From Chitinophagaceae bacterium (lineage in GTDB: Bacteria > Bacteroidota > Bacteroidia > Chitinophagales > Chitinophagaceae), in the NCBI GenBank assembly GCA_017882265.1, contig JADGPW010000037.1:1-54051 (forward strand): 54,051 nucleotides of DNA, given 5' to 3'. The notes beneath the pieces were generated by a model. The model saw nothing but the letters and a program-made list of their open reading frames with translations, did no database searches and was not told where the DNA came from. Positions 24,973 to 31,353 of this stretch are shown here, piece after piece. Position numbers and translations under genes: made by a program. Within the stretch, counting starts at the first letter, position 1. Each line of letters starts with the position of its first letter.

Positions 24973-25016
24973 CTTTAGGCCACACTAACAACACTTAACG
25001 GGAAGTAACAAGAATT

Positions 25017-25052
25017 GAAACCCTTACCAAATTAAAGACTGGTAAGGGTTTC
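25017..25052. terminator. Hairpin between tRNA-Arg and the T9SS fragment (bidirectional terminator?)
   Basis: A 13-bp perfect stem, GAAACCCTTACCA and TGGTAAGGGTTTC, with a 10-base loop, lies 45 bases after the tRNA. No T run follows on the plus strand; the minus strand continues AATTCTTGTT. It may end transcription from both sides. Confidence 0.5.
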
Positions 25053-25136
25053 AGCGTTATTGGACAAAGTTCGATTAGGGAAGCTCTCCACGGCCTCCCC
25101 TGCAACCAAAACGATCGCGCATGAGAAAATATTTAT

Positions 25137-26760: not shown

Positions 26761-26865
26761 AAAAACCCTTCTCCGTAACCGGGCTATACCTTCTATCCAA
26801 AAAGTCCACTACGCAGTGGACTTTTTGGATAGAAGGTAGTGGAGAAGACTGGGAGAAGGGTTTTT
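26761..26865. repeat. Large nested inverted repeat / hairpin element
   Basis: An inner perfect repeat has 24-bp arms (26787-26810 and 26815-26838) around a 4-base loop ACGC. An outer repeat of 14 bp, AAAAACCCTTCTCC at 26761-26774 and GGAGAAGGGTTTTT at 26852-26865, encloses it, ending in a run of T. The whole 105-base unit could fold as one long hairpin with an internal bulge. It may end transcription of the DUF6266 gene or be a MITE or structured-RNA relic. Confidence 0.6.
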
Positions 26866-27782: not shown

Positions 27783-28322
27783 TTATGCCACTTTATCTTT
27801 ATAATGTTCTTTCCACCAGTGGTCCATCCTGGGAAAGGCAAGATGAAACCAGATGGTGTATTTCTGCGGATGCGTTTCCAACGAATCCCGGATGGCCTGC
27901 ATGTCCTTATAGCAAAGATCCATGACCTCTTTTTTATTAAAATTGATCTCCCCTTCATACTCCCCGGCAAATACATGATCAAATTCATGCTCCGTCAGAC
28001 CCCTGTCAATTTTCACATTGTAAATAAAATCAAATATTTTTTCCAGGGGAATATCAACGTTCAGTTCCTCTTTAAGCCTGCGTTGCGCGGCGGCTGGTGT
28101 TTCCTCGCCAGGATTCGGGTGACTACAACAGGCATTCGTCCATAACCCTCCACTATGGTATTTGTTGGTAGCCCTTTGCTGGATCAGCATTTCTCCACGG
28201 CTATTAAAAATAAAAACGCTAAAGGCCCGGTGCAGCAATCCCTTTTTATGCGCTTCCATCTTTTCAAGGAAACCGGTAGGCTTGTCTTCCTCATCTACTA
28301 ATATCACCTGTGTCATATCCAT
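27783..28322 (-). CDS. idi: Isopentenyl-diphosphate delta-isomerase (type 1)
   Basis: This 179-residue Nudix-fold enzyme carries LLHRAFSVFIFNSRGEMLIQQRA, the WTNACCSHPNPGEE motif with the catalytic Cys, the RLKEEL metal-binding segment, and DRGLTEHEFDHVF with catalytic glutamate. It interconverts isopentenyl and dimethylallyl diphosphate, giving the primer for isoprenoids including carotenoids, quinones and undecaprenyl carrier lipid. The stop is 57 bases after the upstream sigma gene, so these are probably cotranscribed. Two ATG codons (28322 and 28316) can start it. Confidence 0.93.
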   Translation of the reverse strand: MDMTQVILVDEEDKPTGFLEKMEAHKKGLLHRAFSVFIFNSRGEMLIQQRATNKYHSGGLWTNACCSHPNPGEETPAAAQRRLKEELNVDIPLEKIFDFIYNVKIDRGLTEHEFDHVFAGEYEGEINFNKKEVMDLCYKDMQAIRDSLETHPQKYTIWFHLAFPRMDHWWKEHYKDKVA

Positions 28323-28379: not shown

Positions 28380-28880
28380 TTAATACCGGCTGATCTGCTC
28401 TTTCAACAATTTTCTTGCAAAGTGTATCCTGCTTTTGATAGTGCCAAGCGGCTCATTCAGCATTGATGCAATTTCATTGTATTTGTACCCGTCAAAATAC
28501 AATAAAAAAGGGGTTTTGAATATTTCGGGTAATTCCTGGATAGCTTTTTTGATCTCTTTCATGCGCAGTTCACTCTCTGCAGCATTACTGATACTTGCCT
28601 GTTTATAATTGATCAGGTAATCATTAGGAGTAGTATCAAAAATTGTTTTTTGTTTAACTTTTCTTCGGTAATCATTAATAAAAATGTTCCGCATAATTGT
28701 GAACAACCAGGCTTTGATATTGGTGCCAACATTATATTTCTCATGATTGGCTAAGGCTTTATACAATGTTTCCTGGTACAGGTCATTGGCGGCTTCTGTA
28801 TCCCTTGTCAGGTTAATGGCAAAAGGCCTCAGGAAATCTGCATGTCTAAGCAGCATCTCATTGAACTCAAGATCTGACAT
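28380..28880 (-). CDS. ECF sigma factor next to the CarH-like regulator
   Basis: This 166-residue protein has region 2 (FLRPFAINLTRDTEAANDLYQETLYKALANHEKYNVGTNIKAWLFTIMRNIFINDYRR) and region 4 (LPEIFKTPFLLYFDGYKYNEIASMLNEPLGTIKSRIHFARKLL). No anti-sigma gene is beside it. The order CarH-like regulator, sigma, idi resembles the regulatory front of Bacteroidota carotenoid clusters, where MerR/B12 proteins are thought to repress a sigma gene until light releases them. A perfect inverted repeat directly upstream of its start (28882-28923) is a candidate binding site. Function inferred from neighbours. Confidence 0.88.
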   Translation of the reverse strand: MSDLEFNEMLLRHADFLRPFAINLTRDTEAANDLYQETLYKALANHEKYNVGTNIKAWLFTIMRNIFINDYRRKVKQKTIFDTTPNDYLINYKQASISNAAESELRMKEIKKAIQELPEIFKTPFLLYFDGYKYNEIASMLNEPLGTIKSRIHFARKLLKEQISRY

Positions 28881-28881
28881 G

Positions 28882-28923
28882 TTATTTTGTTTAATGATTA
28901 TAGTATAAAATTAAACAAAATAA
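28882..28923 (-). promoter_or_regulatory. Candidate operator: 14+14 bp inverted repeat before the sigma gene
   Basis: TTATTTTGTTTAAT at 28882-28895 and ATTAAACAAAATAA at 28910-28923 are perfect inverse copies, 14 bases each, with a 14-base AT-rich spacer (28896-28909). The repeat begins one base upstream of the sigma-factor ATG (28880) and so covers the likely translation start and promoter region. Spacing suits a dimeric or tetrameric MerR/CarH-type regulator. Binding is not shown; the neighbour at 28986 is the obvious candidate. Confidence 0.5.
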
Positions 28924-28985
28924 TGGTACTAAAAAATTATTTGCCTGTGTTTATTTAACAGCTTAATCAGACCCTCCCAAACTTT

Positions 28986-29864
28986 TTATAGAGAAGACAG
29001 GAATTCCATCACCTCGGCCAGTGATCTTTTGAATTGTATACCGGCAGGGGGTGGTTTTCGGTATTGTTGTGTTAATTGGCCGGAAATGATCGTATTAATA
29101 GTACCCAGTTGTTGCTGCACGTTAAGAAGGAACTTTTCAAAATTAAATTTAGGACAGATGCCGGTTAAATGAATAAATGCGATATCAGGCTTTTTCAAGC
29201 TTACAACGTGTACAACATCTTTTATGGGGATATTGGCGCCAAGATAGATAGTCTTTGCTCCACGGCTTTTAAGCAGGTAACACATAAATAGCAAACCCAG
29301 TTCATGGTGTTCACCTTCGGGTAAAAAAAGAAGAAATGTTTTATCGAGGTGTGTACGCGAAACAGTAGTTTCAATGGCCACAATTAATTTTTGCCGAATG
29401 ATATTAGTTACCAGGTGTTCCTGCGCTGAGTTAATATGACCGGTTTGCCACAGGATGCCGATTTTTTCAAGAAAAGGGAACAGGATCTGGATAACAGTTC
29501 TTTCTATTCCTTTGCTTGCAATATAGTTGGTAACGATCTGTTCGAACTTATCCATATCAAGATCGACCATTTCCTTCACCAGCTCATTAACAATTCGTTC
29601 CTGCACAGCTCCGGCATCATCCAGGGAAAGGATCTTTTCCCTGATCTCGTTCGGCAGCATTCTGTCAATATGCGAGATCTTAAATCCATATTTATTAAGA
29701 AGGGCAATATTAAGGAGGGTTCTTAATTCATCATTAGTATAATAGCGGATGTTTGTGTTTGTCCTTTGCGGCTTCAGGAAATTATACCGCTGCTCCCATA
29801 TACGGATAGTGTGGGCTTTTATTCCGGATAGGTTTTCAAGATCTTTGATCGTAAAATCGTTCAT
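28986..29864 (-). CDS. CarH-like MerR regulator with cobalamin-binding domain
   Basis: This 292-residue protein has an N-terminal MerR helix-turn-helix (about 4-70: FTIKDLENLSGIKAHTIRIWEQRYNFLKPQRT), a four-helix B12-cap (about 85-170) with the W-x9-E-H signature of CarH photoreceptors (Trp139, Glu149, His150), and a C-terminal Rossmann cobalamin domain whose lower-ligand motif reads ExHxxG (Glu185, His187) in place of the classic DxHxxG. Such proteins bind adenosylcobalamin and act as light-released repressors of carotenoid genes. The residue after the Trp is Gln140, where the CarH model protein has the histidine that ligates the cobalt after photolysis, so the light chemistry may differ. 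It precedes the sigma gene by 105 bases. Confidence 0.85.
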   Translation of the reverse strand: MNDFTIKDLENLSGIKAHTIRIWEQRYNFLKPQRTNTNIRYYTNDELRTLLNIALLNKYGFKISHIDRMLPNEIREKILSLDDAGAVQERIVNELVKEMVDLDMDKFEQIVTNYIASKGIERTVIQILFPFLEKIGILWQTGHINSAQEHLVTNIIRQKLIVAIETTVSRTHLDKTFLLFLPEGEHHELGLLFMCYLLKSRGAKTIYLGANIPIKDVVHVVSLKKPDIAFIHLTGICPKFNFEKFLLNVQQQLGTINTIISGQLTQQYRKPPPAGIQFKRSLAEVMEFLSSL

Positions 29865-29905: not shown

Positions 29906-30643
29906 CTAAAGCTCTTTATTCCTGATCTTACCCGAATCAATCAATCTTTTTAATGGTGCAGCCAGGATTGGATTATTAAGCGCTTCCAGGTGCCGGGTAT
30001 GGTGCAGATCGGTACCAACCAGATCGTAATACTCTTTCTTAATCAGATATTGCGCCAGCTCCTGTGAAGATTTCCCGTAATAGTTGCTTAAGGAAAGTAT
30101 ATTTAGCTGGAAAAGACACCCGATATCTTTAAGTTCTTCATAAAAGTCTTTGCTATATTCAAGATAAATATAACGTTCCGGATGTGCGATAACAGGTTGA
30201 TAGCCCTGCATCTGCATTTCAAAGAGAATATCTTTAAGGCTCATCGAGGCATGGGCCATTGAAAATTCTACCAGTACCATGTTACCGCTGATCGTCAGCA
30301 AGGGCTCATTGTTTTTTACTAAACCGGCTACATAGTCATCCAGAAAGTATTCAGCAGCAGCATGTATCTCAATAGTCAATCCTCCGGCTTTTACAGCCAT
30401 CCGAAGCTCTTCCAGCTTTTGAAGGATGGCTTCTCTTTTATTCTTATACATATCCCACATAATATGGGGAGTAGTGATAAGCTTTTTGTAACCCAGTGCT
30501 ATCATCCCCCTGATTAGTTCCAGCGACATTTCAATCGTTGGCGAGCCATCATCTATATCCGGAAGCAGGTGTGAATGCATATCGGTGGAAAGCAGGCTAT
30601 AGTCCGGTCGGGAAGGCTTAGGGTTTGAAAATAGCTTGAACAT
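29906..30643 (-). CDS. CpsB/CapC-type PHP-fold tyrosine phosphatase
   Basis: This 245-residue protein has the DMHSHLLPDIDDGS start (metal ligands of the PHP fold), ITTPHIMWDMY, NMVLVEFSMA, PVIAHPERYIYL and DLVGTDLHHTRH metal-ligand segments. It belongs to the manganese-dependent CpsB/YwqE tyrosine phosphatases that dephosphorylate the capsule-controlling tyrosine kinase (Wzc or CpsD). It is the last gene of the exopolysaccharide locus in transcription order. The kinase itself is not in the window. Confidence 0.9.
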   Translation of the reverse strand: MFKLFSNPKPSRPDYSLLSTDMHSHLLPDIDDGSPTIEMSLELIRGMIALGYKKLITTPHIMWDMYKNKREAILQKLEELRMAVKAGGLTIEIHAAAEYFLDDYVAGLVKNNEPLLTISGNMVLVEFSMAHASMSLKDILFEMQMQGYQPVIAHPERYIYLEYSKDFYEELKDIGCLFQLNILSLSNYYGKSSQELAQYLIKKEYYDLVGTDLHHTRHLEALNNPILAAPLKRLIDSGKIRNKEL

Positions 30644-30690
30644 CGATAATGCTATAGTTGGTTTTCGAAATTACAATGAATTTAATTTTG

Positions 30691-31353
30691 TCAGAAACTT
30701 CTTTTAGGCAATGAAGGAAATACTTTATAAACGAGTTTGCTCTTGGGAAAAAAGATATACCAGGCTGTAAGGAACAGGATCATAAAATCGGTATAGAAAT
30801 TCTGGTGCTGCTGGTACCAGATTTCCAGGGCACCTTTAAAAGGCAGTATAATATCCCGGTAACATTCATGAGGGGGTAATTTACTTTGGGTCAGGATCAG
30901 CTCTTCATCGCGGAAAAGGATGGAACCAATACCGGTAAGTCCTGGCTTTGTATTATATATTTTCAACTTCATCGCATCTGAATACCTGTCGAACCCGACT
31001 TTCATCAACGGCCGGGGACCTACAAAAGACATATCGCCAATAAGAATGTTTATAATTTGTGGTAGCTCATTTAATTTACTTTGCCGAAGCAGTTTCCCGA
31101 CCGGTGTAATACGGGGGTCTTTTCTTATCGTTACATCTCCGTGTCCCATATTTGGGCTATTCTTAAGCATCGTCGCAAATTTCAGGATTCTGAATATCCT
31201 GTTTTTATACCCAACCCGGTCCTGGCGGAAAAAAACTTCATGTTCCCCGGTCAGCATCAGTATAAAGATGATAGGAATAAATAATGGAAGCAGGACAATC
31301 AAAGCTGCCAGCGAAAACAGGATATCAAAAAATCTTTTTACCGGTTTGTACAT
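30691..31353 (-). CDS. Initiating sugar-phosphate transferase (PglC/WcaJ family)
   Basis: This 220-residue protein has a short N-terminal hydrophobic segment (about 9-32, FFDILFSLAALIVLLPLFIPIIFIL), then the conserved FFRQDRVGYKNR, FRILKFATM, DPRITPVGKLLRQSKLNELPQ (with the Asp-Arg pair), and GDMSFVGPRPL motifs of the bacterial sugar-transferase family. It is the compact, PglC-like type with no extra helices. It moves a phospho-sugar from UDP-sugar to undecaprenyl phosphate to start the repeat unit. Its neighbours (a PglE-like aminotransferase and PglD-like acyltransferase) suggest an amino-deoxy sugar as substrate. Confidence 0.92.
   Translation of the reverse strand: MYKPVKRFFDILFSLAALIVLLPLFIPIIFILMLTGEHEVFFRQDRVGYKNRIFRILKFATMLKNSPNMGHGDVTIRKDPRITPVGKLLRQSKLNELPQIINILIGDMSFVGPRPLMKVGFDRYSDAMKLKIYNTKPGLTGIGSILFRDEELILTQSKLPPHECYRDIILPFKGALEIWYQQHQNFYTDFMILFLTAWYIFFPKSKLVYKVFPSLPKRSF

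Follow-up and report, generated by a model that had tools for sequence, protein, structure and literature searches.

What controls the sigma factor gene that, in a Chitinophagaceae bacterium, lies beside a gene for a relative of the B12-dependent photoreceptor CarH? The stretch considered herein (the window) comprises 54,051 nt of contig JADGPW010000037.1 (assembly GCA_017882265.1), and harbours a perfect inverted repeat between the CarH-type gene and that of an extracytoplasmic function (ECF) sigma factor. On comparative sequence evidence, this repeat very probably serves as operator for the adjacent CarH-type repressor. It would overlie the core promoter from which the sigma factor gene is transcribed, such that this gene would be repressed in the dark and released in the light. 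The features concerned are as follows.

28882–28923, no strand: putative operator, a perfect 14+14 inverted repeat with the conserved core TGTTTAA-N16-TTAAACA at 28888–28917 (sequence and comparison)
28380–28880, minus strand: ECF sigma factor gene, 166 aa, directly downstream of the operator (profile match)
28986–29864, minus strand: CarH-type MerR/B12 regulator gene, 292 aa, with W139-x9-E149-H150 and H187 (profile, residues and fold)

A conserved inverted repeat upstream of sigma factor genes

The two arms of the repeat (28882–28895, TTATTTTGTTTAAT; 28910–28923, ATTAAACAAAATAA) are each 14 nt in length, 100 % complementary and separated by a 14-nt spacer, with the entire element contained in the 105-bp gap between carH and the sigma gene. 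It lies 1 bp upstream of the sigma ATG, in agreement with the sequence-only reading, and 62 bp past the carH stop; the CarH-like gene is therefore an immediate neighbour and not, as that reading had it, one gene away. The earlier view that such arms are improbable by chance also holds, as a first-order Markov model with the AT-rich composition of the gap yields six in 400 kb (0.0016 per 105 bp), and one with the composition of the window yields none in 400 kb. Perfect arms of at least 14 nt with a loop of 3–30 nt are found at three places in the window (28882–28923, 26787–26838 and 25016–25053), and the repeat itself occurs once in its own genome (4.02 Mb, 293 contigs).

With regard to conservation, which the sequence-only reading had set beforehand as its own test, the stretches upstream of sigma relatives (the best 80 of 213) were read, accepting sites at 12 or more of 14 letters and keeping the best of overlapping matches, such that arm conservation is partly selected. 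That test is passed, the element TGTTTAA-N16/17-TTAAACA being present at 60 of these 80 loci in addition to the window, at a fixed spacing and place, with the left arm 31–42 bp upstream of the ATG. Gaps of 16 or 17 nt account for 102 of 118 inverted pairs when gaps of 8–29 are scanned, and in the 61 sites, preselected as described, positions 0–5 of the left arm and 1–5 of the right arm are invariant. The conserved element thus measures 7+7 bp with a gap of 16 or 17, the extra arm length in the window not being conserved as such. Beyond close relatives, a phylum-wide search retrieved 26 new loci, all from the same class or nearer, 17 of which have a site of at least 13/14 within the locus, such that the site recurs in the vicinity of more distant CarH genes of the class; here, a gap of 16 or 17 is seen in 28 of 38 inverted pairs (gaps 6–39).

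A second, distal copy resides 54–57 bp further upstream in 40 of the 61 loci (the 60 and the window). The window itself has the proximal copy only, with a degenerate match near the expected place of the other:

28948–28960, minus strand: degenerate TGTTAAATAAACA near the expected place of the distal copy (comparison with the 40 of 61 loci that have one)

Co-occurrence of the site with carH

Both carH and the site are found at 56 of the 80 sigma loci and neither at 20, with the site alone at four and carH alone at none. The genomes of the four site-only loci carry a 62–64 % identical carH elsewhere, hence a CarH gene is present in all 60 site-bearing cases. Amongst the operator-less genomes searched (n=19, with L082 left out of this genome-level count), 17 lack any CarH match, the other two having distant homologues only. 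The genome of L054 has distant CarH genes, one of them with a 14/14 site nearby (L157), whilst the L054 sigma gene itself is without a site. The site still precedes the sigma gene where carH sits 1.2 kb away (L055) or is inverted (L056), and at 29 carH loci (L003–L031) a site of at least 13/14 is located within the locus in 28, with none in L023.

At the level of genomes (147 relatives), the site occurs in exact form in 80 of the 97 that have a CarH match (E<1e-30) vs 7 of the 50 that have none (Fisher p 4e-16, a value limited by kinship). The named loci and this genome set overlap (G151/G003 and G153/G049 share match coordinates), meaning that the two data sets are not independent.

At one operator-less locus (L057:2307-2804), the sigma gene has an internal stop and is preceded by no operator, and its genome yields no match to CarH; the sigma gene may decay after loss of CarH.

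The CarH-type regulator

The neighbouring protein had been described as CarH-like, and its domains, fold and ligand residues bear this out. Pfam assigns MerR_1 and B12-binding_2 above cutoff and B12-binding at 20.8 bits, below the cutoff of 32.1, and the order of domains, in which a MerR DNA-binding domain precedes the four-helix and Rossmann domains that bind B12, is that of CarH and class I LitR. The nearest solved relatives by sequence are Thermus CarH/LitR, and the best PDB matches of the predicted structure (mean pLDDT 91.8, 30 sequences) are CarH chains, at 22 % identity and a whole-chain TM of 0.58, with the B12 part alone reaching a TM of up to 0.82 by target length. The W-x9-EH motif and the cobalt-binding histidine are present as W139, E149, H150 and H187. 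Across orthologues, taken by our own cut as those of at least 53 % identity and counted after removal of duplicate loci (133 kept), W139 and H187 occur in 91 of 91, and E149 and H150 in 90 of 91. Amongst cultured relatives, Terrimonas ginsenosidimutans (L050) has both these ligand residues and the site. The genome also encodes a cobalamin adenosyltransferase, which could make the cofactor of the regulator.

Three distant CarH homologues (L182, L192 and L159; 34–36 %) have neither the cobalt-binding histidine nor an operator site in the locus, and are possible B12-independent paralogues. Two of them, L182 and L192, are amongst the nine class-level loci without a site.

Promoter context and proposed mechanism

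In proximal copies of the site, the left arm continues as TAnnTTTG, matched exactly by 30 of 61 and with one mismatch by 29 (59 of 61 together), compared with 1 and 8 of 40 (9 of 40 together) for distal copies. TAnnTTTG is the Bacteroidota −7 box, situated at −12 to −5 in a Flavobacterium start-site map (PMC9723704). The window has a corresponding sequence:

28906–28913, minus strand: −7 box-like TAATTTTA, one mismatch to TAnnTTTG, beginning inside the upstream arm (putative position)

Transcription would on this basis start near 28901, giving a leader of about 21 nt and a repeat that spans approximately −22 to +20. No clear −33 element is seen at the window sigma promoter, and a sigma-70 scan, uninformative for this phylum, returned one hit on the other strand (mean of shuffles 1.4).

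Conservation of the site, its constant spacing, its overlap with a promoter-like box, its occurrence alongside carH and the ligand residues of the regulator are apparent in sequence; from them we infer binding by CarH, repression, a response to light and B12, and a regulon of the sigma factor. In the dark, adenosylcobalamin-bound CarH would occupy the two inverted TAAACA half-sites, thereby masking both the −7 box and the transcription start and keeping the transcript of the sigma gene and idi (isopentenyl-diphosphate isomerase) off. Upon illumination the cobalt–carbon bond would break and CarH would be released, allowing the sigma factor to be made and to turn on its own targets. Such a site would provide a concrete operator for B12-based light sensing in Bacteroidia, one in which CarH half-sites are arranged differently and which governs an ECF sigma factor; it would allow light-controlled genes to be predicted in these bacteria, and could serve as a promoter part for B12-based optogenetics.

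Comparison with known systems

The CarH proteins of Thermus thermophilus, Bacillus megaterium and Myxococcales have in common with the window regulator the MerR and B12 domains, the fold, W-x9-EH and the cobalt-binding histidine, and their operators likewise use a TnnACA half-site and lie over promoter elements (PMC9304148, PMC8156234). Characterised CarH operators are, however, tandem 11-bp direct repeats of that half-site (PMC9304148, PMC8156234), whereas here the half-sites are inverted and 24–25 bp apart, and the target is a sigma gene. The suggestion that the repeat suits a dimeric or tetrameric B12 photoreceptor is supported, albeit by another route: the step from palindrome to CarH is unsound by itself because known operators are tandem, and it is the comparison, through conservation and co-occurrence with carH, that carries it. 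TAAACA/TGTTTA is found at both arms in 97–100 % of 101 sites (selected for TGTTTAA/TTAAACA), and its fit to the published TnnACA is an independent pointer to CarH.

In Streptomyces, LitR is similarly a B12 MerR photosensor over a sigma factor gene, promoting litS transcription in the light, with LitS serving carotenoid genes (PMC12705666). The window shares this layout, having the photosensor gene beside the sigma gene and the operator in front of the latter, but differs in that LitR is described as acting positively on litS in the light and that no carotenoid gene was found in the window. Class II LitR of Pseudomonas (PmlR2, PplR1), said to lack B12 binding, resembles the present case in its paired TGT/ACA hexamers; its two sites lie one over the −35 and one past the start, and its motif is TGTACA-N12-TGTACA (18 bp apart, each hexamer palindromic), as opposed to TGTTTA-N18/19-TAAACA (24/25 bp) here (PMC9758184). 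The CarA operator of Myxococcus xanthus was initially interpreted as a pair of inverted repeats at the promoter to which two dimers bind, but was later read as direct repeats; it overlaps the −35, and CarA needs no B12 (PMC9304148). Within the CarH/LitR literature searched (one open-access library, to the extent of the extracts available), no CarH operator is described for Bacteroidota.

More tentatively, it is possible that CarH proteins throughout Bacteroidia bind inverted TGTTTA-N18/19-TAAACA through a symmetric assembly that differs from the way Thermus CarH engages direct repeats, that in many Chitinophagaceae two palindromes some 55 bp apart are bound jointly over the sigma promoter, and that in the lineage of the window the light-controlled sigma factor persisted after the carotenoid genes were lost and has come to serve a different light response.

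Weighing the explanations

A number of observations weigh against repression by CarH. Hidden tandem 11-bp repeats were not found, with same-orientation TnnACA at 11 or 22 bp in 4 of 101 sites against a background of 9.5 %. The best NCBIfam match of the regulator is CarH (NF052513), at 110 bits vs an equivalog cutoff of 400, for which reason it is labelled CarH-type herein and not as the curated equivalog. Two operator-bearing orthologues depart from W-x9-EH (K for E in L047, R for H in L069). Exact sites are lacking in 17 of the 97 CarH-bearing relatives and present in 7 of the 50 CarH-less ones, in a table tallied by hand in which 12 of the 17 site-less genomes had no locus retrieved. On the sigma tree, which includes the L057 sigma with its internal stop, there are four changes for the operator and three for carH, amounting to two or three independent pairs, below significance; the two on well-supported branches agree. 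Finally, neither a phytoene synthase (PF00494) nor a photolyase (PF00875) was matched in the genome, which is 90 % complete, such that absence of the former is not proven; photolyase was consequently set aside as a target.

Two of these points would be accommodated by another dimeric regulator binding the palindrome, with carH a mere neighbour: the inverted layout of the site departs from that of known CarH operators, and exact sites are present in those 7 of 50 relatives that lack a CarH match. That proportion is, however, close to the rate for a reversed control pattern (19/147), the site accompanies carH even when the latter lies elsewhere in the genome, the half-site conforms to TnnACA, and the site also precedes carH and crtI, all of which render this explanation improbable. 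Scarcely less unlikely is that CarH binds yet activates the promoter of the sigma gene upon illumination, the mode stated for Streptomyces LitR at litS, since the predicted overlap of the site with the −7 box and the transcription start is a placement suited to occlusion of RNA polymerase. Least credible of all is a function in RNA, with a hairpin in the sigma leader controlling translation. The repeat adjoins the ATG and its stem folds at −9.9 kcal/mol (z −2.0, 7 of 200 shuffles being as good), but the arms are kept as sequence and not as pairs (in sites chosen at 12 or more of 14), the spacing is fixed, the second copy of 40 of the 61 loci is further upstream, and, given a putative start in the spacer, transcripts from this promoter would lack the upstream arm.

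Autoregulation by the sigma factor was also set aside. ECF promoters are asymmetric, and the palindrome precedes crtI and carH in addition to sigma genes. Repression by CarH thus remains the favoured account.

Carotenoid genes and the sigma regulon

A third gene of the locus is likely to share a transcript with the sigma gene:

27783–28322, minus strand: idi, isopentenyl-diphosphate isomerase gene, 57 bp past the sigma gene (profile match)

In relatives, crtI accompanies the operator at 57 of 60 loci, and idi follows the sigma gene at about 2.3–2.5 kb in most cases; L060 has the gene order sigma, crtI, crtB, idi (crtI and crtB named by length and position, sigma and idi by match). The window has only 57 bp here, with no crtI-crtB between, and none of crtI, crtB or crtZ was found within it; matches to the crtI family in its genome are N-terminal fragments far below cutoff. 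Phytoene synthase (PF00494) was likewise not found in G055 (one contig, listed as 100 % complete), which has the site, sigma and idi, whilst in G071, L074 and L103 the sigma gene is close to idi yet phytoene synthase is elsewhere in the genome. Light-induced carotenoids in the absence of car or lit operon genes are reported for Chryseobacterium lacus (PMC7064467).

Other occurrences of the site and neighbouring features

The site is directly upstream of crtI in L117, L131 and L139. Sites of at least 12/14 within 150 bp upstream of carH occur at 15 of the 29 loci L003–L031, 11 of 55 named loci and 3 of 26 class-level loci, for which the 54-kb window provides a yardstick, having six such places, operator included, and none upstream of its own carH. 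Two further 13/14 sites in the genome, near a PKD-domain gene (L146) and before a GNAT gene (L147), are not claimed as operators, as the genome search gave five places vs two in the control. The operator matches at six loci of relatives (L124, L125, L127, L135, L140 and L141) are unaccompanied there by any match to carH or sigma; they stand near other genes or unnamed open reading frames, and may have arisen by chance. One of them, L140:1501-2511, has an exact operator-type site just upstream of a fasciclin-domain gene in a genome with CarH; this is perhaps another light-controlled gene, or chance.

Of the remaining inverted repeats in the window, that at 26787–26838 is a perfect 24-bp repeat with a 4-nt loop, intergenic and within a wider imperfect palindrome, and looks like a strong hairpin or small palindromic element, and that at 25016–25053 is a perfect 14-bp repeat with a 10-nt loop. 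Immediately preceding carH (29906–31353), and sharing its strand, are a CpsB/CapC-type capsule gene and an exopolysaccharide-type sugar-transferase gene. Polysaccharide genes are also found upstream of the sigma gene at L060, but without carH there.
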